64,000 nucleotides of DNA from Apoderus coryli (lineage: Eukaryota; Arthropoda; Insecta; Coleoptera; Attelabidae), in NCBI GenBank assembly GCA_911728435.2, contig OU452208.1, forward strand, positions 9,052,001-9,116,000. The letters run 5' to 3'. Below are positions 3,364-56,753 of the stretch, one piece after another. A program made the translations under genes and the position numbers. Numbering within the stretch: the first letter of the stretch is position 1; every line of letters starts with the position of its first letter. The notes beneath the pieces are model-generated. The model did not search any database. It saw only the letters and a list, made by a program, of their open reading frames with translations, and was not told the DNA's origin.

Positions 3364-3427
3364 CTACTTCCTGTAAGTAAACTGACAATCGTTTTACCAC
3401 TTCACCAAAACAATTCTTTTAAATCTC

Positions 3428-3462
3428 GACGCGCGTTTCGCTAACAATGTTAGCATCCTCAG
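3428..3462 (-). ncRNA. Hammerhead-ribozyme-like motif (left arm)
   Basis: Mirror copy of the motif at 3489-3523, on the opposite strand of the palindrome. It has the core CTGAGGA, an extra T, stem II GCTAAC/GTTAGC, GAAAC, a short stem III loop GCGC and the GTC cleavage-site context. Confidence 0.5.
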
Positions 3463-3488
3463 GAGAGAATTAAAGTTTTAATTCTCTC

Positions 3489-3523
3489 CTGAGGATGCTA
3501 ACATTGTTAGCGAAACGCGCGTC
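3489..3523 (+). ncRNA. Hammerhead-ribozyme-like motif (right arm)
   Basis: CTGAGGA is followed by one T, a perfect 6-bp stem II (GCTAAC, loop ATT, GTTAGC), GAAAC, GCGC and GTC. Bases before and after can form stem I: CTCTC pairs with GAGA just past GTC. All conserved hammerhead elements are present except for the extra base between A9 and stem II. Activity is not known. Confidence 0.55.
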
Positions 3524-3619
3524 GAGATTTAAAAGAAGTGTTTTGGTGAAGTGGTAAAACGATTGTCAGTTTAGTGTTCTACGCCAAAGGTTCTACTCAT
3601 CAATTATACTTCCTGTAAG

Positions 3620-3955
3620 GACCATTTCAAAAAATTAAAGTTAATGACATTCCCTTCACTATACAGGTACGCACTTATAATACATATAAAAAAACAAAAT
3701 GAAATATTGCCTAAATCAGAAGATATACATAGTCACAATACTAGAAATAAAAATAACTGGGTATTACCATTCTCCAGATCAACTACTGGCCAAAAGAACC
3801 CTAACTACATAGGTGTTAAATGTTTCAATAAAATTTTAAAAATACAAAAGTTTCAAAACATTTCTATCAAAAAATTGAAACTGGAGCCGAGAACCTTTTT
3901 TATAGAGAAATGTTTTTATTCTGTAGACGAGTTTTTAAATTATACTAATGAATAG
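3620..3955 (+). pseudogene. LINE reverse transcriptase protein, C-terminal end
   Basis: This continues the LINE protein after the insertion. It reads DHFKKLKLMTFPSLYRYALI, then HSHNTRNKNNWVLPF and a Lys-rich end, stopping at 3953-3955. 'HNTRNK' is a typical LINE C-terminal motif, seen also in the LINE at 39830-40720 as HRHNTRNRS. Confidence 0.8.
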
Positions 3956-4108
3956 TTTTAAGTCCCGAATTATAGCGGGTTATGTATGAATATTATTGTT
4001 TTTGTGTTGTATGTAATATTATTGACTATCCCATAATGTGACATGTCATATTGTATATTATTATCATTCTGAGGAGCAAAGAATAAATAAAAAAAATAAA
4101 TAAAAAAT

Positions 4109-5412
4109 ATATACGAGGGAGAAATGTATCAAAAAACGCTGCATTCGATGCCCTTTTATAATGTAAAGAGGCATGGGAACGGATAGCCCCGGTCGAATCG
4201 TTAAATTTATATATTTTACATTGACTTTGGATACACTATACCTATTACGTTTGCATGCGATTTAACTGTAGGTATTCCTATGATTATGTAATTTATATTG
4301 TATCTAGGTATATAGCTACACACCTCGTAGATAAAAAAATCGGAATGTACCTACTTAGTTATATACCTAGTAAAATGTTTGTGTATAACAATCGAGCCGC
4401 CTGCACATTTAATTAATATTGTGATAAATATCTGTTATACCTAGCAATGCTATTTAATTAAAAAGAACGCTAAATGAGTTAGCATTTTAAAAACGATCGC
4501 GCAATTAAAGTAAATACTTAAATGACAGACGCATCATGAACGAAAATAACACGCAGTCCAGGCGAGAGACAAATTAAAAAGTTTTCTTAATTGCACATTC
4601 TTTTCCAGTTTGAAAAAGACAAGCATAAAAAAAGCCAGATGAAGAAGAGCGAGGGGGCCCTTTCTCCACTTTTGGTGATGTTAAAATTAGGGTGGAAAAA
4701 CGTCCGACTCCTAAATTTTAATTAGTCGTAGTCAACTGAAATAATTTGGAAAAAGAAAATAAAAAAGGAATACTGTACCTAAATATTATGAGCTCATTTA
4801 AGGTTTCCATCACGTACAAGCAAATTGGATTTTTTCCTGTTTTCTTTTTGTGTACGAATGTACGGAACGCATTTTCGTTTCTTAGGTAATTAGCGTTATG
4901 ATATAACGAGTTCCTTTTAAATTCTTTAAGTAGGTACCTTATGTCATATTTATTATTATTATTATTATTACCATAGATACAGCTACATTAATCTTTGCTA
5001 TAAATAAATAAGTACACCTAATGGAATAAGCTATGCATTTAAATTACAAATTATGCTCCCTGAGCCCTCTAAGTTTTAAATCATGAAGTAGCCTTAGTGC
5101 ATCAGAAGCATACTAGAAGTAACTACACTCAAACACAGTAGTTAAAACATTAATGCTGTTATTACCCGGTAGATGGCGGTAGGTTTTACTTTGAGAAAAT
5201 ATATTATACAATGTCTTGATCTTAGATTAGGCTTTACTTGTCTAAGGTCTTGATAGATACCACAAAACATACCCTTTTAGAATACGAACTGCAATGTTAA
5301 CAATTGGAAGTAAAAGAAGCGCCATCTATTGATGTGTCGCATACTCATAAATTAGTTTTGGCGGGAAATTTAAAATAATATTAGTGAGGAATATTTCAAA
5401 TAAATTTACATA
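4109..5412. other. No gene seen
   Basis: AT-rich DNA with a (TTA)n run at about 4947-4970 that looks like an old LINE tail. 'agatggcg' at about 5173 and 'cgccatct' at about 5321 form a short inverted pair of a type common in insect repeats. Nothing else recognised. Confidence 0.5.
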
Positions 5413-5526
5413 GTAACAATTATGGTGCAACTATTATTTGTAGTTTTTCAAAAAATTATTCAAACGAGATATTGTTCAAAATATTTTTGAAAAACTACAA
5501 AAAATGTTGCACCATTATATGTTACA
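5413..5526. repeat. Fold-back palindrome (small MITE-like)
   Basis: The left arm begins gtaacaattatggtgcaac and continues with ttgtagtttttcaaaaa. The right arm is its complement, tttttgaaaaactacaa then gttgcaccattatatgttac. About 45-bp imperfect arms meet around 5460. No coding content. Confidence 0.7.
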
Positions 5527-5679
5527 CGACAAAACATTAATGGGATCGAAAAAAAAAAACAATTATTATTATAAAACATTTATTATTAAAATAGAAACGC
5601 ACCATTAGCAATATTAGTTTACATTTTAATTTAGTCAAAAAGTAGATAGTAGGTACACAATAACAATAAAGTTTATAAT

Positions 5680-5870
5680 TTAAAAACATAAATAAAATAA
5701 CAGGCAGCTTGGACTAGTTACATTCTTGGAATATTCTTTCGATGTGCTAGGGCTAGACATGTCATCGATGACCATGGGGTAACTTATACTAGGGTCACCG
5801 ACGGATTCCTTTGATGTGGTAGGTCCAGTACTTATGTCTATGTCACAAGTAGAGGGTTCCAATTTTCTTC
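5680..5870 (-). CDS. Possible second exon of the THAP protein (uncertain)
   Basis: A Ser/Thr-rich frame (EPSTCDIDISTGPTTSKESV..) ends with a stop at 5680-5682. It lies about 90 bases downstream of the THAP exon donor, in the right order and strand. No convincing pyrimidine-rich acceptor is visible, so joining it to the THAP exon is a guess. A possible AATAAA on this strand lies near 5577. Confidence 0.3.
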
Positions 5871-5955
5871 ATTATGGACCAGGTGCCTCCTCTATAAATT
5901 CAATTATTTCATAAAAACATGTACCACTTTTAATAGAGGTGCGTGGTTTTCTTAC

Positions 5956-6322
5956 CTATATTAAGATGTAATATTGGTGTTGCATTCCATTTAAGGTCTC
6001 TTCGACACCCAAACTGTAACTCATCCGGAACAAAATGTTTCGCACACACTAGATAACTTTTAAGTAGTTTATCAAAGGGAATGTTAAATAAACGGGGGTT
6101 GTTTATATTTGCCAACCACTTTATTAGCATTTCTGGTTCTTTATTAGGGTTCGGAAATCGGAAAAAACTACCATTCTTAGTCTCACAGTTGGGAACACAA
6201 CATTTTTTTTTGCCGGCCGAACTTCTCGAACAAAAAGAGCCATAATAATTAAAATAGCACACACTGAACGCAATTTTTATGCACAATTTACAACTAAACA
6301 AACTTTTAAACAAGACTCGCAC
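5956..6322 (-). CDS. THAP-type zinc finger exon
   Basis: THAP domains are C2CH zinc fingers that bind DNA and occur in transcription regulators and in P-element-derived transposases. Here the domain reads CCVPNC, a Trp in LIKWLANIN, then CAKHF and a closing ATPILHL in place of the usual AVPTIF. These give the C-x(2-4)-C...C-x2-H pattern and the terminal Pro. The exon ends at 5956 with a canonical donor (ATAG/GTAAGA). A possible acceptor (tttttgttcgag) lies just upstream of the domain at 6225-6226, so the true exon may be 5956-6224 and not begin at the ATG 6320-6322. Whether this is a host gene or a P-element relic cannot be told from the window. Confidence 0.75.
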
Positions 6323-6489
6323 TCTTTTTTCAAACTCTTAACGCAAAAAATCATATTAAGACTTGAAATTATGCCACACCCTTTTGTGGGAAATACGACT
6401 ATAACATATGTTTTGTGGGTAATACCAACATTTTTTAAACATAAAATAGGGGGATGTATAAAAAAAATTTTTTTTGGCGGCACCTAGCG

Positions 6490-8238
6490 ATAGGAAGTCA
6501 AACTAAGCGTAGTAGAACAGACAGTTTTCTTCACTTTTCGTTTGCAGCGCCTCTCGTGACTGGTCGCATAGTTAAAAACAGTGTTCCAGTCTCTGCCATT
6601 TAAGTTAATCTTCTAAGGGGGTATGTTTTGTGGATAGATATAGATACAGCGGTGGTGTCACAGGACGTCTGCTTTTTTTTTAAATGGCGCAATGTTTCTA
6701 CAATAATTTCAAATCCTCTACCACATCTAAAAATAACTAATTACAGGCACAGCTAGTAAATTGACGGATTTTTACAAAAAAACAAAATAAGAATAGAAAA
6801 ATAAAATAATATTTTATTGCTAGAAAAATTGTTGGAATATAGGATTATAATAGTAGTTATTTAATCTATAATCATAAAAGATTAATAATTTCTGTACATT
6901 AATCTTTGTCATCATCATAACTACTCTTGTTGTGTATGCAACTCTCTAAACAAAGTAATATGTAATGCAAACTATAATGTTCTTTGATTTTTGCCTCACT
7001 ATGGCGGCCAAAACCACTGTTTCAAATATCCGATGGTGTCACTGTCACTTCACTTGCTGTAAAAGAAGTGAAAAACCATTGTCTTTATAAAGTATAAGAC
7101 TATAAAGACAATAAACAAACTAAAAACTCACAAAAAGTCCCTTTTTAGCGACCTCTAGTTTTAACAAGGATAACTGAAAATTGGTAACCGGTAACAGCGT
7201 AAATAGGTATTTACGCTGCCTATTTACGCTGCCGGTAATAAGAATAACACCTTAGTAGGTTTTATTGGTAATCGGCGAAAGCATAATGACATCATCCTCA
7301 GTCCTCTGACTTTATTATTATTTATTTTATAAAACGGGAACTGAATTTATATCCGTACCTACTTGTGAACTGAGTTACTGGCGTTAAACAGATGAAAATA
7401 ATGTTCTTTTGTAGTTTTCCTGGAAAACCATTAAACTAGCTGTGCTTTAGGAAATTTTTTAATTTATTTTGTAGATACCATTTTCTTTCTTCAGACTATA
7501 TAGTAAAATCAGCATTGACTGCAAAATTGCTAAAGCCAGATGAGATATTTTAATTTTTAAATTCCTTTTGTTTCTAATGTAATATGTGCCTAAAAGACAA
7601 CTGATTAGATAATGCCTTCCATAAAATTACTTTAAGTTGACTTTATAAAACTTGTGCCATTCACAAATCCTTTTCAAACATACCTAGTATGTAATTTGTT
7701 GCAGTGGTAATTTAGAATATATTATTATTTAGTTTTTTAAATACGCAACTCAGATCACACAGTTTAACAAATTATATGATCTCAGTGAACTAATTAATTA
7801 TGGTCCTACAGTGTCAAAATTAATCTCGCACACTCTTATATAATATAATATCTGTGTTCATATATATCTCTGTCGTAGCTGGTTTTTCTACCTAACCTCA
7901 AAAATCAAAATCCGAAAAAAAAACATCAGATCAAACTTAACCCACAATTGGATCAAGTTGCTATCAATCATGTAAACATTCTGAAGTATCTTTATCGGGT
8001 AAAATTTATTTTAATATCATTAATATAAATCTCGAACAAAGCATTATTCCTAACCAGTTAATAAGCTGTAATGCCACGGTCAACAAACTACTTCTATACA
8101 AGGTAAATAAGTAGGTATACTATTTAAGTTATAATTACGTTATGACCATCATGTAATTACCTAGCATACTTTGTATAGTAATTTCTATTAACATTTTTAG
8201 GTTTTTATATAATTTTGTTAAATTTCTCGTACTAATCA
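6490..8238. other. No gene seen; upstream region of the galactosyltransferase gene
   Basis: AT-rich DNA. A local repeat of tatttacgct/agcgtaaata units at about 7195-7232 can fold on itself. The promoter of the gene starting at 8239 should lie toward the right edge, but I see no clear core motif. Confidence 0.45.
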
Positions 8239-8326: not shown

Positions 8327-11300
8327 GTAAGTTGGTAAGAATTTTGTATGAGTTGTAAAATACACCCTATGAATTTTATGACATTATTCAATGTAGCAAG
8401 GAATTGTTAGGAGGTCAATTAATTATCTAATTCAAGCCAATATAGTTTGATATCGATTGTTCGTCAATTTGCATAATAAACGTTAAATTACACTCTGTTG
8501 AAAAATTGAATTGAATTAACTACATTAAAAATATACTCTACAATTGCTCAATGCTAGTACATTATTGTCAAATGCTATTAAATAAAATATCGCACACCCT
8601 AAGTACCTATATCAAAGGCTCAAAAAAAAAACAATACTAGGTAAGTATGAAAATAAAAAAATCATATCAAATTAATGTATTCTGCACGCAGTACTAAGTA
8701 CTTCAATGTACGTAGAGTACAGTTGGATGAGAAATATACAATATCTACAAAGAATTTTTGCTTTCAGCTGAAGTAATCGGATGGGAATCACATGTTATCC
8801 GTAACACAACACTGTACATCGATAGAAATAAAGTAACGCCAACAATGATGCCTGATAATTTCTGTGATCGACAATCGTTATTGCTTATGATAGTGTGTTC
8901 AGCGCCTGCTAATTATCAGGCTCGACTTGCCATAAGGGAGACATGGGGTAGAAAGAGGACTGTATTAGGTCATAATGTTTCCTTATATTTTTTGTTGGGT
9001 CAATCGCCTGATAGTTCCGTTCAGGTAAGATACTTATAAATATGTTATACTCGTTAAAATATTAAGAAAAGTTTCTCTTGGGTTTTCAAATAAGTATATA
9101 CACTAAAATTGATCAGATGCAATGCTTATTGGTTATGTTGCTATCATTCTTAAATAAATGACCAAGACTTCTTATAATTATTGAGAATTTCTATATCAAT
9201 CAACAGGCGGTCTACTAATTACTTCAACAAAAATGTTAGGGAATTAAGGAGTTGCGTTCAGTATTGGTAATAATTAAATTGTTTTCTTTTAACGTATTGT
9301 CCGTGTTGTGAATTTTATTACACATTATAATTAATTTAGTTTCATTGTGTTTGAATGTGTATTAAATAAATTCTAAATTTTGTCTTCGTAGGCTTTTGCG
9401 CCTGGCTTCAAATATTTTTTTCTGTTGGATATTTTGAAGCCTGGGTACCATAAGCAATTTATATAGCTTTCTTCCCCAACATAATTGTGAAAAATAAAGC
9501 GTCATTAATTAAATATAAACCTTTTTTATTGGAATTACAAAATTACATATTAGATTTCTGTATAAATATGTTTATATTACAAAACAAACAATCCACTATG
9601 TTTTTATTTTTTTTTATTAAATTGATTACATGTTTCGAGGATTTAGATCCCCATCATCAGTTCTTTACAATCCAGTGTACATATTTAAGGAATTAAAAAA
9701 ACATATACAATCAAATATTGACAAGACATTTAAAAAATTTACTGTTTTTTGAATCTTCGAAACATGTATTCAATTTAATAATATGAGAACATTGCACTGC
9801 ACTTAGAGCATGGACTACTTCTCTTCAAATATATATGTATATAAATATAGAAACATGAAATAAACTAATATAGTATACAAACTGAAAAAAAAAATCCGTG
9901 TCACAAGTGGGATTCGAACCCAACATCTCCCGATTGCCGGTCAGGTGTTCTAACCAATTGAACTACCGTGGCACATAGTTCCTTAATTTTGTACGTATAG
10001 ACCAACAGTTAACCTAGGTGTGTTAAGAAAAAATCGCAAATATCCAGAATTTATTCGATTTAAAAATATCTGAGTGTATTGTCTATCTTATGCAACTTTA
10101 TGGTGCAAAATTTTTGGTGCCTATCAGTAAAAAATCTGTAGTCGTATTAAATGATAAATAGATAATAAATATCCATTATCAGATTCATCAAACTGATGAA
10201 TCAAGGTACTTTATTTTTCTTAAAGATAAGAGATTTATTAATTACTTAATTGCATGTAACAATCTTGATAATAAAAAAAATGTTTAGACAGTAATAAGAT
10301 AAAAAGCGATAGGGGGGCAGGGATAAATAGGTAACCGTAGTTGAGGAATAAAAATAATAAATATTTAATATTGAATAAATTATGTGTAGTTATTAAATGC
10401 GTCTTTAGGTTCAGGCGACTTATTTTTGTATACTTACAATGTGTTTCAAAAATGTGTGCCAATATTTTTATAGTCAATGAAAAAAATAAATAATAAGCAC
10501 TTTATTTGCTACAGGCAAAACCCAATTACAGCAACATCAAAGTGTACTAAATAAGTGAAAAATTAAATACAGACTAATTAATACCTATAATACTGAAAAT
10601 AAAAAAATAAGTAAATAAAAACTCACTCTAAACTTAAATATGCATTCAATACAGACTGTAAAGATGTAAAGGAAATTTCACAAATATGCAATATGAGATA
10701 CTCTTTTAAAATTACTGCACATGAAATGTATTGGCGATTGTGTTAATATAGTTTAAGAGTCGCTGGGAGATCGACCTTCATGATAACCAGATGAGACATA
10801 TTTTCTATCAAATAATATTAATTAACAAACATGCCTATGATAACTTGCCTATCGAAAAGTGGTCATGGCTATTTTTAATTGAATTAATTTGAATCAATTT
10901 TTTTTTTTTCATCACCTTCACTCTTTTGATAACCGAATGAATTTCATCTCAACTAATAGTTTTTTATACACAGAATATGCCTCGATAGGCTTGCCTATTT
11001 ATTTTTTATCATGGCTGCCTGGCAAGTAGATGTGAACAGGTAAGTCAATATAGGTAACTACACCGATCTGATAACCAATTCAAATTGATATCATTAGAAA
11101 GATAATTTAATTACAAAACTAATCGCAAAAAACCGGAGCTATTAAATTGGCGCGAGAGAGAAAGTAGAGCGTCTGAGGTTCGTGTGATAGAACAGGACAC
11201 AACATAGCAGCTACACGCTACCTGGCCGTTGAATGTATTCGACTGCGCATGCTCGTTTACATGCGAGTAACAGAGACAGCATTTGTTTACAATAGACAGT

Positions 11301-15541: not shown

Positions 15542-15547
15542 AATAAA
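15542..15547 (+). terminator. Poly(A) signal of the GT31 gene
   Basis: AATAAA 131 bases after the stop codon, the first such hexamer downstream. Confidence 0.6.
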
Positions 15548-22795: not shown

Positions 22796-23291
22796 ACAGG
22801 GTGTCCCGAGATTATCTTAAAATAATTTAAAGGGACATTCTACAAGCGAAAATAAGATTGTGATATATCGAAAAATGCTTCGTTTTTATACACACAGGGT
22901 GTTATTTGTAAATTCCTGACGATGGGTTTTTAGTAATATTTCCAAAACGCGTCTCGATATCAAAATGACATTTGGCACACTTACGTATCTTTGTAGGAAA
23001 GGGAGAAGTTATTCTTTCAACCCTAAGACACATTTCCACCCTGTTTCTTGCATTATCGTAGCCGTATAATAATATTGGAGACGTTGCATAGAAATGTTCA
23101 AAGTCATTTATCTTGAACACGGCTTCTTCTAGCGTTATGAAACAAGTGAACATTTTGTATGTACAAAAGTTTCAAATTTATTATTCCTTTTAGAGAAAAT
23201 AAAAAAAGCGCACAAAAAAACAGTTGGGACAAAATTTTCGCTTGTAGAATGTCCCCTTAAATTATTTTAAGTTAATTTCGGGACACCCTGT
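22796..23291. mobile_element. ACAGGGTG fold-back element B
   Basis: Arms ACAGGGTGTCCCGAGATTAT..attctacaagcgaaaat and the complement ending ggacaccctgt. About 58-bp terminal repeats; no coding content recognised. It sits only 9 bases after element A. Confidence 0.8.
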
Positions 23292-23715: not shown

Positions 23716-23827
23716 AACATTCAAAAATGAATTTTATATATTTGAAGTTTTAAATGTTGTAAATATAAAGAAAATTGTCTGTTATGATATGTTAGAATTT
23801 GTGTTGGATAGAAAAAACTGTTTCAAC

Positions 23828-23860
23828 CTGAAGAAGTTACTAATTAGTAACGAAACGTCG
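23828..23860 (+). ncRNA. Hammerhead-like motif
   Basis: CTGAAGA, A, perfect stem GTTACT/AGTAAC (loop AATT), GAAAC, GTC. Stem I can pair AAC before CTGA with GTT after GTC. TTTAATTAAT and then AGTGGA follow downstream. Confidence 0.5.
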
Positions 23861-24081
23861 TTATCATTTCATTTAATTAATTGACGAAAATAAAAGTGGA
23901 TATTGTTTTTATTTAAAAAAGAAAAATCAACTGAAAAAATTAGGATTACGGTTCAAGAATAAACAAAGAAAAAATATGTTTAACTTTATTGTTCAATGGT
24001 AACATTTAAACTTTTTCGTGAAGTTACAAAACAGAGTTATTCTTATTTCACAAAATCATCTCATTCTGCCGCACCCTGTAT

Positions 24082-24800
24082 ATATGTGAATTGGACAAAT
24101 CAACATTTTTTTGAGATTTTTTATTTGATCATTGTGAGTGTATCGTAAAATACTCCAAAGTTAAATTACTATTAAGTAGTTGCCGTGGTAACTGATAGTG
24201 GGTTATTTCCAATGCCGATATGGTTCCCAAAATTCAAAGCTATTAAAAGTCGTGTTAAGTAAAAGACTAAACCAATTACGTTTATAGCAGAATTGGATTC
24301 TGAATAAAGTAGCCACACTAAACTTGTTGTTTTGAGATACTTTGGTTTGAAATGGAAAATGATTTTATCCTTCCACATTTTAGAATAATATTGTGTTACC
24401 AGTACAAATCTGCTTTACCCGTTCATGTAAACTGCGAATATGATTATAATATTTAAAGTAAATTTAACGACAAAGTGCTTATCGTCAGGCCCTGTATGAG
24501 CAGTATTATATATATATTTATTTGTATGTGTCATAAATTAATACTTAAATTTGTGTTTTATACCATATTTATAATGTTAGTTAGTTAGTTAAAGAGCCTA
24601 TTTTTGAAAATTGCTTTATTTAGTTACGTAAATTTTATATTTTAATGATGCTAATTAGACAATCAATTTTAATTGCAAATACAAAATGCTGTCACATGTT
24701 ATCTAAAGCCTTGTTTAGAGTGATATTTTATAAAGGCAAATATTTATTACAATGAAAAAACACACGTCGTTTCCACTAATTGATTAAAAAAACCTTGTTT
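24082..24800. other. No gene seen
   Basis: AT-rich DNA, nothing recognised. Confidence 0.4.
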
Positions 24801-24810
24801 TTAATTAAAG

Positions 24811-24843
24811 GGACTTGTTTCGGAGTCTGAACTCCATCATTAG
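24811..24843 (-). ncRNA. Hammerhead-like motif
   Basis: Minus strand: CTAATGA (core G to A), T, perfect stem GGAGT/ACTCC (loop TCAG), GAAAC, AA, GTC. Stem I AAGG/CCTT is complete. TTTAATTAA and later AGTGGA follow. Confidence 0.48.
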
Positions 24844-24859
24844 CCTTCTTAAAAAAACA

Positions 24860-46500: not shown

Positions 46501-49500
46501 CAAGATAGTTGATATTCTAAAGGTGTTATTGAACCACCTTCCAAAATTCAAGATCGTGTTTATTTAACCGAGAAAATGGCAAATATTTTCCGGAGACCTG
46601 CTTTGGACGAAAAAAATTCAAAATAAATTATTTATTCAAAAACAGTTGAAGATAGGTATAGGGAAGTGTTAAACTAAAATACTCCAAAGTTGATGGAGAA
46701 TCCAAAAATATAATAATATATAGGGTGTTCCATTTGAAATAAGAAATTTGGTATCAACTTCCGGTATAACCGGACGTCCTGCAAATATTAAAATATTATA
46801 GACTCATAGATGGGGTTGACCTGAGTAATCCCTTAAATTTTCAAAACAATGGTATGGTTACTTTTCCCAAAACTTCTAAGGTTCCATCGACCAGCAATCA
46901 CCCTGTTATATATGGAGGGCTCAGAAGTCAATCAGTGTAAATCACTAAATATAGAAAATTGGTGTTTTTCGAAACTTGTATTAAAATAAAGATTTCCGTT
47001 AAGGTACTAATAACCATTTTTATTGAGATATAACATACTCATAAACATAAATATAACACATATTAATAAAAAAGGAAAGCGTTTTTCTTTTTTTATTCAT
47101 TTAAACAGAAAAAAAATTACTTAAGCGAAATGTCCACTGAAAACTTTTTTTTATTGAGGTATAAAATACTGAAAAATTAAATAATATTACACATAAAAAT
47201 TAAACGCCTTTCTCTTTTTCATTCGTTTAAACACAAAAAAAATGGCTGATAAAGTAACAGTATAATAAAAATGAAAATCATTTTTGTTTTTTTTTTTAAA
47301 CTAACAAAACATAAAATAAAAAATCAGTCTATGAAATTATCCGAACCGGCACTGTCAAGGGTGTCCAGTTGAGCGACTTTTGAAGTTGAAGCTCGAGTTT
47401 TTGTATCTACTGGTAGATTTTTATAAAATTTGTGATAGTTTGGCGGAATATAAGGCAGCAAATCAAACATGTGTTTCTTTTTTGATCTTTGACAGGTCTG
47501 CGATTTGGGTAGGGCTTCTGGAACAATATTGCACAAATTAGGTCGTCTTCCCTGTCCTGAAGTTTTTGTGATATTAATCTCATTAAACGGCATATCATCC
47601 TGTAGAGTTTCTTTATAAAAAATAGATTCCGGCTTATTTTTTGAATACCTAAGCTATTTTATATTCAGCCAATTCACTTTTGCCCCTCCATTACTGATTT
47701 TTCTATTAATTATATTGTCTTCTAACATTTTCGTAGAGATAAATTCTTCCCGCTTCATTTTTATTACTTTAAATGGATTAGTCTTTTTAGCAGTGATAAC
47801 TAAATTGATCCAGTCTTCAGGACCATAAATGAACTCCTTTTTCTTTGCCTTTGATTCAATGACTCCAAAATCCGCATCATTTGGAAGATAGCTATGACCT
47901 GACACGAGAAATTTATGGTCAATTGAAGAAGCAGTCATTTCTGGATCTTGAACGCGTTTTAGCAGCGATAGACTCAGTTTAATATTTCGGTTTTGACCTG
48001 TACAACTATCAGAATACAAAACGATATTTTCACAATTCCTGGCATTCCTTTTCAGATGTTTTATCAGGCAGTCAGCAACTTCTTGTGAACCTCCAGACCC
48101 CTCTATTTCGTCCCACATAAACATGTACCCGTTATTGTCATTGAAACTATGAACTCCCAGGTTGTAAATGTATAAGTTCATCTTATAATAAGCTACAGAT
48201 GTGCTAAGTTTGGGAAAGGGTAAAGCTTTTTGTAGGTCGAATGTAAGAATATAAATATTCTGATATACTATCCGAGTAAGGATCTTTTTCTTCTAGTTCT
48301 GATGGTAAATCAACTGTATTTTCACTCATTATTACAGATATAAAATCATTAATAGCGTTTGAAGGTGATTAATAAAACTGCAACCACGTTTTGACACGCC
48401 GAGATGACTTACACTATCTGACTTCGGAATATTTTCTAATTTTATTCACTAGCCAAATTAAATCCTGCCATCTGTTGGCTTTACTGTGAAGCATCGACTT
48501 AGGCGGTTTGTCCACTGAAAGTTTTAACTTTAAAGAGGAACCTTTACTACCTAACTCAATTTTCACAGAAAAATGACTTACGCTGATTGGCTTCTGAGCC
48601 CTCCATATATATATATATATACACATACAACCTAAACCGTAATAGATAGGGGAAAACTAATTAAGACGTCACGTTCTACTTTTTTGCGTTTAGTTTAATG
48701 CCGCAATCGTAACACCGCTAACTTGACTAGTTACCTTTATGCAGGGTGATTTTCATTTTTTTTGTCTTTTCTTTTTTCCTTCATATCTCCGTTGCTATTA
48801 GTAGAGTTACGTGAGAATTGTTTTAATAAAAGTTGGAGACAATTTGATGCTAAATGCAGTGGCGTACTCAATTTTTTTTCGAAGTCCTATTGTTTAAAAT
48901 AACGCTAACAACTTTGTTTTCTCAAATGGGACACTCTATATATCAAAGTGTCACTAGCTTCCAAATTTTATTCTCTTTATAACTCTGTATGACAAGTGGC
49001 TATATATTTAGTCGAACTTAATAAACATGAATAAAAACCATATTTTAAACAGATTTACAAATAAAATACCTACATTTTATAATTTATCTACTGTTTTCAC
49101 TGTACTGTATATATATTTTGTTTAAAAAAATATATGACCTCCGTAACGATACAGAATTTTAATAATTATTATTATGTAATTATTTCCAATAAACTAACGT
49201 AATAAACGAACTACTTTATTCAAAAATTAGAAAAAAATGCCATAACTGGGATTTGAACCCAGAACCTTCCGCATGAGAAGCGCAAGCTCTATCAGTGATC
49301 CCAAAAATTTTCAAATTACTTTATTATATTCTAATCAGAGTTATAGGTTCCAACTACCTAACTGGTAAAATTTTAAACGCAATTTTCTCGAGAGTTATGG
49401 GGTCAAATGTCAAAAGTAACCTATCGCTATAAAGCAGATAAAAAATGCTTTAAAATGATGTAGCACTCACGGTTGTGTCCACCTCTATTACAGGGCTAAA

Positions 49501-51516
49501 GCAATTTCAACCAAAAACTAATGGGTTTATCTTAGGAGTCCCCCAAACTCATACACCAAAATTTAGTTGAATTGGTGAAAGCCTTTAGGCGCTATCGTGT
49601 AAGAATACATACAGAGAGACAGACGTCCATCTGGAAATGGTCTTAATGGTCTCAAGGAACTTCAAAATGGATATATCCGTTTTTATCTCAAATGTGTTCC
49701 ATTCCAAGACTACCAAATTGGAACCTAAACTGTGAAACGGTACAGCAAAAATTTTGTTTGAGTACGCCACAGAATTCTACTTACAATATCTATCAAAAGT
49801 GAGTTTTTCCCTTTTTTTGTCTTTTATCTATCTGTGAGAAATAATAGCATCCCAAAAGGTGAAAATTTTCATTTTCACCCTGTATCTCAGAAACAAAAGA
49901 ACCTAGATGAATTCGGTTTGTAGCATTAAAAGTTTCACAAAAAAGTGGCGCAAGATCGCGAAAACCGCTGGTCTCTATCTTTATTAACAGCTGAGATACC
50001 CTGCAGTCTCACCCAATGTAGGACACAGTGTACAACAAAGCAGGAGACAGTTATGAGCATTTTTTCAATTAAAATTATTATGAACTTCAACCAAATTCGG
50101 AATCTACTAAAACTAAATTTATAATATACCTAGATATTTATTAATAGATATTATAAAAACTGAAGATGGCCTTAGTTAGGGCCGAAACATATATTTAATT
50201 AATCAAGAAAGAAATTTTAGTGGAAAAGACAGGAATGTTACTTATTCTATAAATTTATTATTACTTTTATGGAATTAATTAGCAATAATACTAAAAACAA
50301 ACTAAAAAATGTGTTTTTTTAATTTTACAATTGAGCTTGAGCTTTTATTTTTTTTTTTCATAGAGTAGGTATCGTATATTTCTATAAATATAATAATAAA
50401 CTTAAAAAAACTGCTTGTTGTTGAAAGTCAAACATTTATTACAACAAAAATCATACATATTTGAAAATTCAGCAGTTTACTAATTTTTTCCCAGCCAAGT
50501 TTAGTGTTCTTTAAGATAAACTGTTTCTTTGACAGCAATACTCCAATCTATTAAATAAAATATCATCACTAATACGTTTTTAGTTTTTGAAAAAAAAAAC
50601 TCATTTGTGCCACTTCCGAAAATTGTATACCTTTTAAATTCTATACATCGGTGGTTCTCTAACGAATGCAATACTTTCCGCTATGTCTTTCAAAAGTTAT
50701 TAAAGTTTTTTGAACCTAATCAATATAAAGTTCCAAAGTCAACGTCCGCGATATCTTTAAATTTGTTTTTCTTTGCGACTAAATCTTTTAAGGTAAACCA
50801 CATTTTTTTATTAGCACCGGGAAAAATCCTGCTGTCGGAAATTGATTTGGATTAAATCATTAATTTCGTAGATACTCATTAATATACCATGTGTCCCAGA
50901 TAAAAGTAAATATATATGATGGACAAATATTCTTTGATTTGTTATTCATATTTGTGGTAAATTAATTGAATTATTTGTTATTTTTACTATGTTTCAATTC
51001 ATCAGTTTATACCTAGTATAACTTATAATTATATAAAAATGAAAATATTCAACAGAAAAATCGTTGTACTTTACTAAGCTTTGTTTTTGTCAGATTTCTT
51101 ATTTCTAAGGTCTTATCAAGTGCCTACTAATAATTATTATTTATACCTGGATGTTGATAATTTTCTTAATTATTTTTTTCTATTCACTGCTGTGATAAAA
51201 ATCGAATAAAGCAGCTAATTACATTACAAATGAATATCTAAATTTCAGCCTTCACCTACATTTCCAGATAACATATGTTATTTGAATTAAAAGATTTTTT
51301 CTTTTTCAATGTGTATTTCTCTTACACACATATCAATACAATTCTGTTATTTCTTTACAACACACACGCTTATTAACTAGTATGCCGTGAATTACTTTCT
51401 ATCATTTAAGGAATTATTACCTAACAGGTGTAGATTATTGTATAAAGTGGTCTAAAAAAATTACTAATTTAATTACCTGCTGAGAGTAAAACCCATAGTC
51501 CAGGCGGTCGTTTCAT
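30752..51516 (-). CDS. Secreted chitin-binding (CBM14/peritrophin-A) protein with long charged tail, nine coding exons
   Basis: Coding exons, 5' to 3' on the minus strand: 51516-51477, 44430-44312, 41413-41159, 35176-35043, 33167-33016, 32955-32772, 32506-32346, 32210-31596, 31530-30752. The total is 2439 nt, 812 residues plus stop, and every junction phase agrees. Residues 1-28 form a signal peptide (MKRPPGLWVLLSAGVLLLCL..). One chitin-binding type-2 domain has its six cysteines at 122, 137, 143, 153, 166 and 174 (FKCDG..PHKC..YHHC..DFLC..TFIC..VDC). After WHRNDALY the remaining ~630 residues are Pro-, Arg-, Asp- and Tyr-rich low complexity. A single CBM14 domain fits the 'cuticular protein analogous to peritrophin 1' class, which binds chitin in cuticle or tracheal matrix. 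The class is inferred; the domain is seen. Confidence 0.92.
31596..32210 (-). CDS. Chitin-binding protein gene, exon 8
   Basis: Acceptor gatttcag and donor GTAAGT at 31595. It is Lys/Arg/Glu-rich, with EYYDDEEYEDEPVTPKR echoing the acidic Tyr repeats of exons 6 and 9. Confidence 0.93.
32346..32506 (-). CDS. Chitin-binding protein gene, exon 7
   Basis: Acceptor attatttag and donor GTACAT at 32345. It encodes an Arg/Ser-rich segment (RRPSSSRKETDRRRP) then DDEDVADKFEDEDF. It was found by phase matching. Confidence 0.88.
32772..32955 (-). CDS. Chitin-binding protein gene, exon 6 (DYY repeats)
   Basis: Acceptor gttttatcag and donor GTTAGT at 32771. It encodes FDYYDDDYYDDDYYEERP, a basic GRKRPRPRPRP stretch and YDDDEYEEYEDE, so strongly alternating charge blocks. 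Confidence 0.9.
33016..33167 (-). CDS. Chitin-binding protein gene, exon 5
   Basis: Acceptor tttttcag and donor GTATGT at 33015. It encodes NDALYVAQSTTTLRPINLNI and a Pro-rich linker, directly after the CBM14 domain. Confidence 0.9.
33313..33411 (+). pseudogene. psq-type helix-turn-helix of a pogo-like transposase
   Basis: The frame MHSTLKEHNSVNAASVQYGI, PEAT, a stop, RRYIKNN fits the HTH_psq pattern (..l..G.sv..AA..yGIp..TL.rr). One stop replaces the expected Leu of TL. Confidence 0.75.
33780..34575 (+). pseudogene. pogo-like transposase C-terminus with PHD-like zinc finger
   Basis: CGIEPFNTEVFGEADFAPST (in the frame 33831-34286) is the 'GI.PFN..IF...DF.pS.vT' block that follows the DDE domain in pogo/Jerky-like transposases. 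After a shift, KSTKRVKQRATV follows. A finger comes next: YYEPPSEDWIQC, a stop where Trp is expected, HESCTAY, and ETFTCD. It has a frameshift near 33850 and two or more stops. Confidence 0.75.
35043..35176 (-). CDS. Chitin-binding protein gene, exon 4 (second half of CBM14)
   Basis: Acceptor tatttttaag and donor GTAAGG at 35042. It encodes VYHHCLFGTRYDFLC..TFIC..EVDC, four of the six domain cysteines, and ends in FWH plus phase-2 AG. Confidence 0.95.
35200..38040. other. Intron 3, first part: no gene seen
   Basis: AT-rich DNA. At 36650-36689 two hairpins adjoin: TGGTGAAAC/GTTTCACCA, then CCACTG/CAGTGG with an 11-12 base loop. Confidence 0.45.
38052..38765. repeat. GC-rich inverted-repeat unit in intron 3
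   Basis: A perfect 28-bp palindrome, TTTACCGCCCGCAT plus its complement, lies at about 38087-38114. A second GC-rich hairpin spans 38651-38757 (GGCGGTAAAGC..ctgtatag against ctatacag..GCTTTACCGCC) with ctcgctcgcttcgctc in the loop. TTTTTCGCCTGCCT at about 38052-38065 recurs inverted near 38622-38636. Together they may bound one ~600-bp element. The GC content is far above the surroundings. Confidence 0.6.
38981..39045 (-). tRNA. Degenerate tRNA-like sequence
   Basis: The minus strand shares CAATTGGGAGATG and GGGTTCGAT with the tRNA-like sequence at 9900-9972. The D arm is recognisable (TAGCTTATTGGGCAA) and the acceptor stem is lost. A pseudo-tRNA or SINE head. Confidence 0.45.
39830..40720 (-). 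pseudogene. LINE reverse transcriptase, C-terminal half
   Basis: The minus strand reads INVGAPQGSVLAPLIFILYI, the catalytic IHFADDTSVLLS, WCNRNQLILNSDKT, then after frame changes DAGLTWQCHLDHVCGKLNSA, TWGQASQI and HRHNTRNRSLLVIPQHRTTK. It has at least two frameshifts and a 5' truncation. The FADD box is kept. Confidence 0.88.
41159..41413 (-). CDS. Chitin-binding protein gene, exon 3 (first half of CBM14)
   Basis: Acceptor tgttttag and donor GTATGT at 41158. 85 codons, phase 0 to 0. It encodes DYVWDPNLPKELNGYNLSDY, then FKCDGLHDGFYASVPHKCQ, the first two cysteines of the domain. No ORF call covers it in full. Confidence 0.92.
41787..43165. mobile_element. Inverted-repeat element with a short HTH gene
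   Basis: Left arm 41787-41858 and right arm 43090-43163 are imperfect complements (aaaaaggtctg, tttctaggacgtatagtac and ctctataaaactac match). Inside are the HTH ORF at 42752-42925 and, on the same strand, a LINE 3' end with a (TTA)n tail at 42649-42664. Confidence 0.65.
42752..42928 (+). CDS. Small TE protein with DUF4817-like helix-turn-helix
   Basis: The 58-residue frame MANYTYYSEQVDMIITLGQC, GNSNLAVRRYAAKFPAR, PNRRAF ends in TAA. The pattern 'Y.NEEYADM...YG...GN...A...Y..R.P.R..P..R.F' is the N-terminal HTH found in mariner-like transposons of insects. The catalytic part is absent, so it is probably a relic. Confidence 0.65.
43240..43532 (+). repeat. LINE 3' end with (TTTA)n tail
   Basis: A T-rich untranslated region ends in tttatttatttattta. 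No coding motif survives. Confidence 0.45.
44312..44430 (-). CDS. Chitin-binding protein gene, exon 2
   Basis: Acceptor aattttccag and donor GTAATT at 44311. It encodes the rest of the signal peptide (VLLLCLHDVYGIRA) and a Thr-rich start of the mature protein (STSTTTTTLAPEP). Phases fit exons 1 and 3 exactly. Confidence 0.88.
44573..45110 (-). pseudogene. piggyBac-type transposase C-terminal relic
   Basis: The minus strand reads DVVNEMSASYSVARKSRRWP, matching piggyBac 'GVD..D.....YSV.RKT.RWPL'. Frame changes follow, then IVYKEDNDN..FLKKLGFQLIEEHQEQ and YPRLTREL, the piggyBac helix block, and a broken Cys-rich end (SRTRDRKVF). Several frameshifts. Confidence 0.75.
45400..45600 (+). pseudogene. 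Tyrosine-recombinase (Crypton-like) fragment, copy 1
   Basis: The frame NNFDIVAKYLNLANPGEYTG, PCFRRSSATIL is followed, after a deletion and shift, by GWKSASVAEGYIEAIKLK and a stop. This matches the R-H-x-x-R..Y end of eukaryotic tyrosine recombinases (GHCFRRTSATLL..LKRHGGWKS..VAEGYI). The catalytic His is Pro here, and the segment before GWKS is missing. Confidence 0.7.
46228..46907. repeat. ACAGGGTG-type repeat fragments
   Basis: Copies of the terminal motif lie at 46228 (acagggtgggc), about 46401 (acaaggtgtaccatttgaga), about 46468 (ccaccctgt) and about 46722 (tagggtgttccatttga). The last pairs with ctcaaatgggacactcta at about 48912-48930, on the far side of the DUF7869 element. Confidence 0.45.
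46908..48612 (-). mobile_element. DUF7869-like DNA transposon with terminal inverted repeats
   Basis: Left end tatatggagggctcagaagt then caatcagtgtaa; right end, complemented, tatatggagggctcagaagc then caatcagcgtaagtca. About 40-bp repeats lie in a TATATA context. It carries one decayed minus-strand gene. Confidence 0.75.
47324..48330 (-). pseudogene. DUF7869-type transposon protein, decayed
   Basis: The N-terminal piece starts at ATG near 48330 (MSENTVDLPSELEEKDPYSD). The core frame (48181-47654) reads NLYIYNLGVHSFNDNNGYMF, IVLYSDSCTGQNRNIKLS and SGHSYLPNDADFGVIESK, the Asp..His..Asp..Glu blocks of this RNase H-like domain, common in insect TE proteins. A TAG replaces an expected Trp at about 47658, after which KNKPESIFYKETLQDDMPF and a Lys/Pro-rich end run to 47324. 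It lacks the region between N-terminus and core. DUF assignment is from memory of the motif pattern. Confidence 0.65.
49239..49302 (-). tRNA. tRNA-like fragment (3' half)
   Basis: The minus strand has a clean T arm (CTGGGTTCAAATCCCAG), an anticodon-region loop CTCATGC and a trailing T run. The 5' acceptor and part of the D arm are missing. A pseudogene or SINE head; distinct in sequence from the two other tRNA-like copies. Confidence 0.45.
49878..50035. repeat. Dispersed repeat R1, copy 2
   Basis: Homologous to 29316-29482, with tcgcgaaaaccgc and gagataccctgc in the same order and spacing. Confidence 0.6.
50160..50192 (+). ncRNA. Hammerhead-like motif
   Basis: CTGAAGA, T, stem GGCC/GGCC (loop about 8), GAAAC, ATATA. 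A stem I of AAA/TTT is possible. TTTAATTAAT and AGTGGA follow within 45 bases. Confidence 0.42.
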
Positions 51517-53010: not shown

Positions 53011-53734
53011 CTCGTCACTACAATCAATCAGATATTCCATGATTATTGTATAAATGATGAATCAAATTCAAATTGAATATTTTACGACGCCCTCAATTTT
53101 TGACAACCACCATAATTGTTAATAGCTTTTATCATTTTTCTTGCTTAGCCATTTTTGAGTGTTTTGTAGCACTAGCCTTAGAAATGCACACTTTCTCGTC
53201 CCTATGGAAGCAGTAAAAATCAATGTTCTCATAGTGTCGGCAGAAAAAAAAAAAGTTACTCTCATTCATATCTATGAATGTCGTTCGTAAGCGAAAATAG
53301 CTGATTGGATATGTACCTATATAATAGGTGGGTCAATTAATTGATAGTTTACATCTAGCCAATGTATGCAATTAATAATAATGAATAATAAATCATGAAA
53401 TTGTTATTAAAAAATATTTTTTTTTTTACTTTCTAACTATATTAAAACAAGGGTTCGGTATAATTATTATTATTTATGCAAAGAAAAAAAAATTATCAAG
53501 GTTATTCTACTCTCAAGAGTATACAGGATGTTGCCACAGTTAAAATAATAGACAGTTACTTCACCTCGTGTCGGCACGTTTGATGTTCATTGTCTACAAA
53601 GCAATTCGCTTATAGTTATAGTATAGTATCTGATAGTATATATAGTAGCGGTCCAGAAATGTGGCTGGGAATGCGACGAGTCGATGCCGTTTTCAGCGTC
53701 TAGTGAACCTTCTTGTCTATAGTTAATATTCGAT

Positions 53735-54895
53735 GATGTTGCTATTATATTCGACTGACAACGCTCTCGGCTTAGTTGTCAAATATTCAAATTTAAAATC
53801 GCAAATTTGCCATATCTCAAAAACACCTTTAAATATTCGTGACCGATATGCGTTCTTTAAAAGTCATAATTTGACATAAAAAATAATATTTATAAAAATT
53901 AACCAGTGGCATTCTATCGGGGCTCGTAATAATAATAATAATCTTCGTTATTGATTGAAATACATGTGATACAATATTAAAAAGAAATAAAAATAAACAA
54001 TAGTACGAAGTAATAGTATAAACAAAAAAATGGTACCTATGTCTTCGATCAAAGGGCGCAATTATAATGCTATTTTTACTTAACCTAAAAGAGGATAATA
54101 ATAATAATATAAACACAATAATAATTTCAATTCCTATGATGCATTTGGATCTGCAAGCAATTTTTTTTTCACGCTAAACATAAAGTTAGTGGACCTAACA
54201 ACATTACAGCATTTTAAGTGAAGGATCTCTGAAATATAGCAGCCGGAATATGAAATAATTCGTCATATCTCAATCTACGTTGTGTCATTTCTAATGTCTA
54301 ATTTTTCAATAAGATACTCTGGACTTTTTGTGGATATTAATCTACGAGTATATACAAAACATAGCATAGAATATTTATACATATTTTCAGCATTTATTTA
54401 TTCCAGGTCTGAATATTTTTGTGATATATGGTAAAATTTTCTGATACCATAAACGAACCTGCAAGATGTATTTAATATTTTTTGCAACTTCTTTTTGTAT
54501 ACGAAATCCAGACAGGGATAGTAAACTATTAGGCCGTATGTTAGTATTGGAGCAATTATACTTTTATAGAGTTTTTTCCTAACTTTAAAATTTAAGATAT
54601 GTTTGTTCGCAAATAATGTTTTGAAGCAGACAAATGCATTTCTGTATCAAATAAAATGCCTAAATTTGTCGAAGAAGTAGAAAAAGGAATTAGAATGTCA
54701 TTTAGCTCTATCTGTAAATACCTAATTCTTAAGGTCTTTGGTGAACACACCTTGATACAACTAGTGACACTAACAAAAAAATTTCTGGCAAATTTGGGAT
54801 TTTAAATTTGAACCTTTGACAACTGAGCCCTTTAAGGGTATCTCAAAATGCATGAACTAGCGAGAGTTTTTTGGGGTCGAATATAGCAACACCCT
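53735..54895. mobile_element. Fold-back element carrying a LINE insertion
   Basis: Left arm 53735-53811 and right arm 54786-54895 are complements (gttgctat.atattcgac, ttgtcaaa..ttcaaatttaaaatc and gcaaatttgcc). The right end keeps accctgtata; the left terminus has lost it. Confidence 0.65.
53925..54780 (-). pseudogene. LINE C-terminal relic with (ATT)n tail
   Basis: The minus strand gives, with shifts, LFANKHILNFK..KLYKSIIAPILTYGL and LQKILNTSCRFVYG, typical of the region after the LINE reverse transcriptase. The tail is at 53929-53942. The 3' untranslated sequence matches the LINE end at 59130-59300 (tttttacttaacct.aaag). Confidence 0.65.
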
Positions 54896-55402
54896 GTATA
54901 TTTAAAAAATCAACCTTATAATAAATTATTGTCGATTGATAAATTTCTAAAGTATATCGACCCAATGTTATTAACAATAATTTATCTATTAAATAATGCA
55001 AATTTATTAATTAAAATGAAATTTAATGAAGATATATTGATAAAGTAGATTAATAGCCTTGGTTTGCAGTACTATATAATTGGTCACAATAAAATAGTGT
55101 ATTTATGTAAATAATAATTTAAAAATATAGAATTCCCGTCTTGAAAAATGTATTCCTTAAACAAACCTGTTCAAGATTTTTTTTTTTTTGCCTTTGGAAG
55201 AACATAAATTTGTTTACGTCCGTGATTCCGTTTGAAGGAAAATAGATTTCTTCAAATTAAAACAAAAGTTAAAAAACACGAAATATAAGTATCTAAGTTA
55301 CACGAAGAATATACAGTTTTATTTTTAAAACAATTACCAATATGTTCTTATTAAAAAAATAACTATAAGAAAAATTAGATGTTATGTATTTGTGAAATTC
55401 CA

Positions 55403-55441
55403 CTGATGATATTAGCTTTGAGCTCACGAGACATGTCTGAT
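55403..55441 (+). ncRNA. Degenerate hammerhead-like motif
   Basis: CTGATGA, T, ATTAGC/GCTCAC (a weakened stem), GAGAC, AT, GTC. TTTAATTATT follows. Probably a decayed copy. Confidence 0.3.
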
Positions 55442-55719
55442 ACTACGAAAATTTAATTATTAAAGATAAATTTTGCCTCATATATTTTTTATCTATCCTT
55501 AAGAAAATGTGAAAGCTCCCATTCTTTGTTTTTACCAAAAACATAAAGACCTCAATATAATGATTTGTAGTAACGCATTTTAAAGTTTAATAGTATATTA
55601 TGCAACGATCATTTAATTGCTATAAGAATTTCAACATGAGCGTAGCGAGCAATAATCAAAAATATCGAAAATTATTTATTGAACATGATATTTAATTTAA
55701 AATTAACAAATGTCAAAGT

Positions 55720-56150
55720 AAATAATAATAACTTTATTCATAAACAGCGATTTTACAATAACCAGTAGCATAAATATTATGAAACAATATAAAGAGTTTA
55801 GGAAATGTCAACTTAAAAATACTATAATTCCAAATGTGATCGTTCAATTTATATGGTTCCAATTTTACTAACATGCTTACTATTTCTCGTCTATAAACCT
55901 TCAGATTTGGTATTGGTTTAATAATTATGTTAGGTAATTTGTTGAAAAGTCTAAGGCTGACATAATGCATTTTTCTTTCTTCAAATAAACACAACCTGTG
56001 TGTAAGTAAATTGTAGTGAATATTATTTATATATTAAATAAAAGTGGCCCTAATATGCTGCCCTGTGGTACCCCCATTTTTACATTCTTATAATCTGAAT
56101 ATTTTTTCAAATATATCAGGTCCACATGATAGAAAGTCGCCTAAGTCCTG
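55720..56150 (-). pseudogene. Internally deleted LINE
   Basis: NVKMGVPQGSILGPLLF (reverse transcriptase motif) is joined within a few codons to a C-terminal frame, HYVSLRLFNKLPNIIIK. The tail (AATAATAA on the plus strand) is at 55719-55730. The catalytic FADD part is deleted. Confidence 0.75.
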
Positions 56151-56159
56151 TAATCCTAT

Positions 56160-56720
56160 TAGTCACAATCACAACCTAAATAATAGCGAATCTCATTAAA
56201 GAACGGGAAGTGAATATCTGACACGTCAATTAAAGGTAAAGTCGAAGGACAAATATTTTTTCTACGACTGTCTTTAAATGCCTTTATTATATGTTCAATC
56301 ATGATTTGAAAATGTAGTACATTGTAATGCTGTTTTTCATTTACCCGTGCGTAATAATATTTCCCACTAGTTGCTAGGCTAAAATTTCCTGGTAATGACA
56401 AAAGTAGCAGCGGGCATGAAAAATCACCATAGCAACGCCGAAAATACAAACACCAAATTGACAGTTTTGGTATTTATAATTAATAATGATTATTATTAAG
56501 TATTTCGCTAATTTCAAAACTCAGTGATAGTGAATATAGTTTAACACCACCTAGTCAATTTAATCCCATTCTAATTTATCGTATTTAGGCTTATACAGTA
56601 ACTCGCCTGCGGCTCATGCTGCAAACGATCATACTCGTAGGAAATATATGTCATTTCACGTTCGTTGTAGAATATACTATTGTGTTTAGATTGATACAAT
56701 ATTAATGTCTGAAAATGCAT
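56160..56720. other. No gene seen
   Basis: An open frame on the minus strand (56159-56449) has no recognisable motif and may be chance. Confidence 0.35.
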
Positions 56721-56721
56721 C

Positions 56722-56753
56722 GGCCGAGTTTCAAGCCTGAACTTCCTCCTCAG
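56722..56753 (-). ncRNA. Hammerhead-like motif, divergent
   Basis: Minus strand: CTGAGGA, G, a short AAG/CTT stem, GAAAC, TCGGCC. Same core spacing as the other copies, but no stem III or GTC. Confidence 0.3.

Follow-up and report, generated by a model that had tools for sequence, protein, structure and literature searches.

Hammerhead-type RNA motifs with one added core nucleotide and their Penelope-like carriers in the beetle Apoderus coryli

The window analysed here is a stretch of 64,000 nucleotides from the beetle Apoderus coryli (assembly GCA_911728435.2, contig OU452208.1, positions 9,052,001 to 9,116,000, forward strand). It contains recurrent motifs that resemble hammerhead ribozymes, and we conclude with high confidence that these are hammerhead-type RNAs carried by Penelope-like retrotransposons (Penelope-like elements, PLEs). 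An initial annotation, made from the sequence alone, had proposed eight hammerhead-like copies at unrelated places. All eight stretches read as it described, and they are named here by their first positions in that description: 3428(-), 3489(+), 9629(-), 23828(+), 24811(-), 50160(+), 55403(+) and 56722(-). A covariance model (R1), trained on 40 motifs from contig C1 of this genome and on no window sequence, recovers six of the eight at E values of 1.2e-7 to 6.5e-4 (Table 1). Copy 55403 is marginal, copy 56722 is unsupported, and the next window match outside the eight has E = 0.11. Weak matches at 22908-22964(+), 50975-51013(-) and 46954-46990(+), with E values of 0.11 to 0.16, may be decayed hammerheads or chance.

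Table 1. Features of the window. Positions count from its first nucleotide; "+1" marks one nucleotide between A9 and stem II; E values of hammerhead copies come from the search of the window with R1.
Feature	Position	Strand	Remarks
Hammerhead, +1 (U) core, stem III ACGCGCGT	3419..3470	-	E = 1.1e-6; predicted cleavage between 3428 and 3427
Hammerhead, +1 (U) core, stem III ACGCGCGT, stem I TCTC/GAGA	3481..3532	+	E = 1.1e-6; predicted cleavage after 3523
Hammerhead, +1 (U) core, stem III ACATGT	9616..9668	-	E = 5.3e-7; AGTGGA at 9597 (minus strand); stem I not clear
Hammerhead, +1 (A) core, stem III ACGT, stem I AAC/GTT	23820..23872	+	E = 7.5e-7; predicted cleavage after 23859
Hammerhead, +1 (U), altered core CTAATGA, stem III ACAAGT	24801..24851	-	E = 6.5e-4; AGTGGA at 24777 (minus strand)
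Hammerhead, +1 (U) core, stem II GGCCTT/AGGGCC (one G-U pair), altered stem III ACATAT	50152..50204	+	E = 1.2e-7; AGTGGA at 50219
Possible decayed hammerhead copy, GAGAC core, broken stem II	55395..55448	+	Marginal, E = 0.034; stem II absent from folded model
Eighth proposed copy, unsupported	56722..56753	-	Short stem, +2 register; no match at E <= 5
Head-to-head palindromic insertion of 229 bp, two copies of a non-coding PLE part	3378..3606		Matches L513
Target-site duplication of 13 bp, TACTTCCTGTAAG, left copy	3365..3377		Direct repeat with 3607-3619
Target-site duplication of 13 bp, TACTTCCTGTAAG, right copy	3607..3619		Direct repeat with 3365-3377
"Tail" extension, on one arm only	3574..3606	+	Sequence past the palindrome
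Stretch resembling sequence near GIY-YIG frames of PLEs, contains copy 23828	23723..23976	+	blastn pieces, 66-87%
Reverse transcriptase frame of another retrotransposon, just upstream of the palindrome	1668..3284	+	Pfam RVT_1, E = 4.1e-24; GIY-YIG not reported

All six solid copies have one extra nucleotide after A9. Exact cores of this form (CTGANGA, one nucleotide, a stem II with 5 bp or more, then GAAAC) number five in the window. They represent four independent places, since 3428(-) and 3489(+) belong to a single palindrome as its two arms. Simulation of 1,500 windows with matching dinucleotide content gives 0.004 per window. The same test gives no exact core in the window with stem II directly after A9 (register 0) and one in the +2 register, 56722(-). 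The sixth solid copy, 24811, differs from the exact core by one change; an earlier and smaller core test had used 40 simulated windows and allowed one mismatch. Stem III is self-complementary in 3428, 3489, 9629 and 23828 (ACGCGCGT, ACATGT or ACGT), a stem I can be read clearly only in 3428, 3489, 23828 and 24811, and AGTGG lies 30 to 39 nt past GAAAC at five window places read by eye. Single-sequence folding of seven window sequences (3428 was omitted, its sequence being identical to that of 3489) formed stem II in the +1 register in the five good copies and not in 55403, and gave a 4-bp stem in the +2 register at 56722.

The window copies belong to a very large population. In the 428-Mb genome, searched on both strands, matches to CTGANGA, 7 to 26 bases, CGAAAC number 29,728 (14,729 + 14,999) and those to the reversed pattern 2,080 (1,088 + 992), an excess of about 27,600 that, with the recovery of six window copies by a model made elsewhere in the genome, bears out the initial reading of these motifs as hammerheads. 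Detailed statistics come from the flanks of 91 of the 100 first-listed plus-strand places, which lie in the first 2.43 Mb of contig C1; they contain 113 core matches on both strands, 110 of which were kept once those near stretch ends were removed. This C1 sample thus represents one genome and the start of one contig, and its members were selected on the exact core.

In the C1 sample, taken with no selection on pairing, stem II, which had been described as covarying, shows pairing in 280 of 364 cells (pairs 2-5) of the +1 register, where shuffling gives a mean of 143.6 (z 15.2); an excess of paired stems over shuffled ones is therefore seen there. Registers 0 and +2 give z values of 5.0 and 3.8 in the same set, and the signal in register 0 is expected because families with a standard core, such as CTGATGAGTCGTGGATCGACGAAAC, are also present. 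After removal of similar stem-loops, 21 usable motifs still give a z of 6.2. In the alignment of 40 motifs (A1), 89.5% of stem II cells are paired, a figure that is inflated because these motifs were picked for a stem II of at least 4.

Among the 63 non-redundant C1 motifs with a stem II of at least 4, 47 have the +1 core, 15 the standard core and one the +2 core. In the sampled part of the genome the +1 form is thus the prevailing core, and the direct passage from A9 to stem II that belongs to the type I description is replaced there by one with an additional nucleotide (T in 35 of the 47, A in 11 and G in one). The other type I features are present: a core with a free N7, which takes all four bases among the genome motifs while the fixed core bases follow from the construction of the pattern, and stems I and II that pair with covariation. 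Directly after GAA, 44 of the 47 motifs carry a palindromic stem III of the form AC..GT (ACATGT in 22, ACGT in 19, ACGCGCGT in three), whereas AC elsewhere in the flanks begins such a palindrome in 33 of 604 cases. The palindrome is found in 17 of 25 distinct stem-loops of the unselected set, and 9 of the 15 standard-core motifs have a longer palindrome at this place. A stem III that is self-complementary and too short to form within one RNA is the mark of dimer-type hammerheads; it characterises these 44 motifs and four of the window copies, and not 24811 or 50160. By their predicted structure, we regard these motifs as minimal, dimer-type hammerheads.

Base 17 was read in 44 motifs as C (17), T (14), A (12) and G (1); it is not G in 43 of the 44, in agreement with an NUH cleavage site. 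The tiny stem III and cleavage site of the initial annotation therefore stand as far as the site (GTH) is concerned, while stem III is best read as intermolecular, being too short to close alone. Stem I pairing, which had been proposed for the best copies, is recovered in the 17 palindrome-bearing motifs of the unselected set, where 15, 16, 10, 15 and 7 of 17 are paired at positions 1-5, against 2 to 9 of 17 at five slid registers.

The motifs fall into families. GTGGA occurs at +20 to +80 in 17 of 19 motifs of the ACATGT class and in none of 17 of the ACGT class (18 of 40 C1 motifs overall, with 0 of 40 in the control), and it is a marker of the ACATGT branch. Copies 9629, 24811 and 50160 appear to belong to these ACATGT/GTGGA families. 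Two standard-core families were also seen on C1. One, of the type CTGATGAGTCGTGGATCGACGAAAC and often with stem III ACGGCCGT (L442, L419, L460, L461 and L472), occurs in tandem and head-to-head pairs and has a retrozyme-like look. The other, CTGACGAGCTCATAACAAGAGCGAAAC (L452, L453, L467 and L486), has a palindromic stem III ACGAATTCGT in some members and shared sequence of up to about 400 bp.

The carrier can be named for two families. Locus L513 on contig C5 encodes a 774-aa open frame with RVT_1 and GIY-YIG domains, the domain pair of PLEs, and a hammerhead begins 133 nt past its last codon. The reverse transcriptase (RT) and GIY-YIG domains were both demonstrated for L513 only, and with such a frame and a hammerhead in the non-coding repeat this locus has the make-up of a PLE. 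Positions 3701-3803 of L513 match the arms of the window palindrome at 99% over 97 nt (3378-3474) and 100% over 103 nt (3474-3576). The stretch around copy 23828 (23723-23976) has blastn partners at eight GIY-YIG loci (L493, L497, L498, L501, L503, L504, L510 and L512). The aligned pieces cover the whole hammerhead in six of them (L497, L498, L501, L503, L504 and L512), and its stem-loop II, GTTACTAATTAGTAAC, is common to L497, L501, L503, L504 and L512. Judging from these matches, the window palindrome and copy 23828 are PLE parts. The suspected link to PLEs is thereby strengthened, and the places are not all unrelated, since at least three copies, in two insertions, are parts of transposon families.

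Other PLE loci point the same way. Twenty GIY-YIG loci were taken as the match plus 1,500 bases on each side, in contig orientation, and an exact-core hammerhead lies within about 1.5 kb in eight of them, in all eight with the +1 core; R1 adds weaker or altered hammerheads at such loci. By arithmetic, a distance of about 460 to 535 nt separates the GIY-YIG match from a downstream hammerhead on the strand of the open reading frame (ORF) in L494, L497, L498, L501, L503, L506 and L512. PLE coding remains are found upstream of the hammerhead and in line with it in the C1 loci L413, L417, L470 and L449; only 23 and 26 residues (E 4e-4 and 0.001) remain in L417 and L470. Motifs of the ACATGT type lie within 1.5 kb of GIY-YIG in three of the 20 loci (L500, L501 and L504). 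There they are on the opposite strand or beside another hammerhead, and a PLE origin of copies 9629, 24811 and 50160 is therefore no more than probable by analogy.

The palindrome that contains 3428 and 3489 also suggests how such copies are inserted. Its arms, 3378-3474 and 3477-3573, are 99% complementary, and the whole is a bare unit between target-site duplications. Two relatives on C1, L421 and L441, carry their own target duplications of 13 and 15 bp, and in all three insertions an extra tail of about 31-33 nt is present on only one arm. A 227-bp query found 40 near-full-length copies at 97-100%, the window's own included, among the scored rows of 1,407 candidates. The palindromic junction occurs at 140 places and its reversed control at none; the junction pattern requires at least 11 nt per arm, and shorter arms escape it. 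Among 50 listed places there are 33 different junctions, and 79 of the 100 arms end 14-16 nt upstream of CTGA. The varied junctions and the sharp 5' end suggest repeated twin insertions. Taken together, the sequences suggest that an RNA whose fixed 5' end lies just upstream of the hammerhead was inserted many times independently; some finished units may also have been copied.

Head-to-head order is also the rule among neighbours. All 19 neighbouring pairs of GIY-YIG matches less than 8 kb apart are in - + order (150 scored of 1,260 candidates), as are 18 of 20 pairs of same-family hammerhead neighbours in the C1 loci (one is + + and one + -). With matches near stretch ends included, 19 of 22 same-family neighbours are head to head, one - - pair being added. 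Of 18 head-to-head pairs, 10 have direct repeats of at least 10 bp and 8 do not; among mismatched pairs the share with such repeats is 4.9%.

Similar insertions are known from rotifers. The available text on the PLEs of Adineta vaga (PMC3846280) describes inverted pseudo-long terminal repeats (pLTRs), one of them with a 31-bp tail, and proposes self-priming on an antisense template for elements with palindromic junctions. The beetle insertions share with these PLEs, as far as that text describes them, the head-to-head pLTRs, the one-armed tail, the target-site duplications and the palindromic junctions; they differ in consisting of nothing but a 229-bp unit, which has a hammerhead on each strand, and in the occurrence of the junction at 140 places. 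The beetle palindromes could come from self-priming or snap-back copying, or from the multiplication of ready-made palindromes, instead of twin priming on two templates. This is a serious possibility, if a somewhat improbable one. Fillers of 0-2 nt in 31 of the 50 listed junctions and four microhomologies would suit such an origin, as would the recurrence of one junction at 10 of the 50 places and of another at 6. A single multiplied unit fits poorly with 33 different junctions, however, and the tail on one arm only, in the three cases read, implies that the two ends began at different sites.

Retrozymes, which are small non-autonomous elements with circular RNAs and type I hammerheads, offer another identity for the copies, which would then not be PLE ends at all. 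Retrozymes and PLEs co-occur in animal genomes, according to the part of PMC7761336 available to us, and two standard-core loci show tandem spacing, of 263 bp in L442 and 333 bp in L419. We consider this identity very improbable for the copies at large: direct matches tie the window palindrome and copy 23828 to PLE loci, and among same-family neighbours, which are mostly head to head, tandem arrangement is limited to two pairs.

The added base is found beyond the beetle. In 400 viral-contig loci, chosen by pattern among the matches listed, we counted 275 distinct complete hammerheads (at least 4 bp in each of the three stems), 144 with the standard core and 131 with the +1 core; the extra base is T in 128 of the latter and G in three, and none of the 275 has two or three extra bases. 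Six scrambled-core controls on the viral loci gave 0 or 1 hammerheads. The 53 viral hammerheads that lie outside all search patterns, 43 standard and 10 with the extra base (9 T), give a fairer ratio, again among the matches listed. Within the same matches, 25 pairwise comparisons with a similarity above 0.88 pair a +1 hammerhead with a standard one, as in L266 and L260 or among units of the single contig L219; the members of a pair may also differ at further bases. The first scan of viral contigs, aimed at the core plus AGTGGA, gave mostly chance matches, yet it exposed the hammerheads with an added U; two narrower patterns of our own had no match on viral contigs. Examples of loci with complete type I hammerheads are L191, L222, L214, L260 and L162, and a Pistol ribozyme (L059:2025-2092(+), 59.7 bits) shares a viral-contig locus with a standard-core hammerhead.

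On this sequence evidence, the added U is a recurrent natural variant. The extra base does depart from the usual hammerhead core, as had been said of the window copies; its dominance in the C1 sample and its recurrence in viral contigs show that it is not a local oddity. Insertions elsewhere in the hammerhead core, after A6, after position 13 and after position 2, are reported in the accessible part of Perreault et al. (PMC3088659). Apart from a general remark in PMC10085705, a literature search found no description of an additional base at the border of A9 and stem II; the two key papers were outside its reach, and no novelty in print is claimed.

Several observations weigh against the identification as hammerheads of PLEs. 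The palindromic stem III is lost in 24811 (ACAAGT) and 50160 (ACATAT), and the folding energies of the window copies are ordinary and uninformative (z -1.9 to +2.0). An exact-core hammerhead is missing within about 1.5 kb in twelve of the 20 GIY-YIG loci, and in none of the 20 is a hammerhead of the ACATGT/GTGGA families an in-line neighbour of the PLE ORF. Rfam reports no hammerhead in the entire window at the gathering score or at E <= 10, nor, at gathering, in 16 viral loci with candidates, standard cores included. Because standard-core viral candidates are missed too, the silence of Rfam says little, and we did not use it as evidence. When Rfam Hammerhead_1 (RF00163) was run on 98 nt around 3489(+), the alignment of positions 3485-3527 took in stem I, the core and stem III; it scored 18.3 bits (E = 0.025), where gathering requires 34. 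Finally, hammerhead mutants of an Anolis PLE leave insertion in vitro unchanged, and cutting needed protein, as the accessible text of PMC11167929 states.

The last point bears on function. The motif could be a structural signal of PLE RNA, for protein binding or for the start of reverse transcription, that looks like a hammerhead and has lost cutting, the extra base marking the loss. The base sits in the core, after all, and sequence from either side of the predicted cut is present in the inserted copies, which were therefore made from uncut RNA, in agreement with the normal insertion of the Anolis mutants. This reading is nonetheless unlikely, because a binding site would not need the freedom at N7, the H at position 17 (43 of 44 not G) or the palindromic stem III (44 of 47), all of which are kept, and because the same added U is found in three-stem hammerheads of viral contigs. 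Our preferred reading remains a true hammerhead, and the +1 form probably cuts RNA. Overall, the initial observation is partly confirmed and its interpretation is supported.

In the mechanism that we propose, the catalytic core is intact save for the nucleotide added between A9 and the start of stem II, which is U in most copies and A in some. Stem III would join two RNAs, or two units in tandem, into a double hammerhead, and each core would cut the site of its partner. Reverse transcription of the PLE would start a short distance downstream of the hammerhead, as the Anolis element and the shared 3' ends suggest; such internal initiation would leave the hammerhead even in strongly 5'-truncated insertions, which may explain the many thousands of genome copies. 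Head-to-head copies of one family would arise because both target strands are primed, each at its own start site, as the junctions, duplications and one-armed tails suggest. The remaining roles could be the control of tandem or paired transcripts or, most boldly, the pairing of two templates for twin insertion.

This scheme resembles what is described for the Anolis PLE in the accessible text of PMC11167929, where the hammerhead (PAc) lies at the pLTR-ORF junction with the ORF beginning at stem II, and where the protein cuts and extends both target strands, copying starts 111-118 bp into the ORF and targets are AT-rich. By analogy, we liken the beetle elements to it in the hammerhead at the pLTR-ORF junction, the internal start of reverse transcription, the cutting and extension of both strands and the AT-rich targets. 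In contrast to PAc as described there, the ATG that A9-U-G creates is followed by stops in the small number of beetle copies read by eye. The idea that the extra U belongs to an AUG start codon is accordingly not favoured: three copies read by eye hit a stop within about 12 codons, and the additional base of the ACGT class (A 8, T 8, G 1) weakens it further.

A few neighbouring features of the window are recorded for completeness. A remnant of a mariner-type transposase lies at 450-1034(+) (DDE_3, Transposase_1). Inverted repeats at 19756-19829/20081-20154 (74 nt) and 22791-22853/23234-23296 (63 nt), 92-94% complementary, are perhaps small DNA transposons. A tRNA-like gene at 9898-9972(-), with anticodon GGC for Ala (ARAGORN; Rfam 48.9 bits), lies about 230 bp from the hammerhead at 9629 and may be a tRNA-derived repeat.

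Minimal type I hammerheads without helix III nucleotides are dispersed in thousands in animal genomes and lie in the pLTRs of PLEs, and cutting as dimers has been proposed for them (Cervera & de la Pena 2014; Lunse, Weinberg & Breaker 2017; from the portion of PMC7761336 available). The beetle motifs share these properties. Compared by description only with that portion, they differ in the extra nucleotide that most sampled copies have between A9 and stem II. Rfam at gathering missed the motifs both in the window and in the viral loci tried, and hammerhead counts made in that way may be too low.

The step from A9 to G10.1, where the extra base sits, is a main metal site of the hammerhead, and natural hammerheads with and without the added base, including close viral pairs such as L266 and L260, allow a test of variation at this site. 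The role of hammerheads in PLEs is given as unknown in the available part of PMC7761336. We tentatively suggest, as a rather improbable proposal, that the +1 hammerhead is a distinct natural core class of animal PLEs and viral genomes, that in PLEs its self-complementary stem III loads two RNA 5' ends into one insertion complex, and that cutting would be a switch on the dimerised RNA and not the main task. Dimer loading, if true, would explain both the dimer-type design and the strong head-to-head arrangement, and the palindromic insertions, with their sharp 5' end and varied junctions, make the hypothesis testable.

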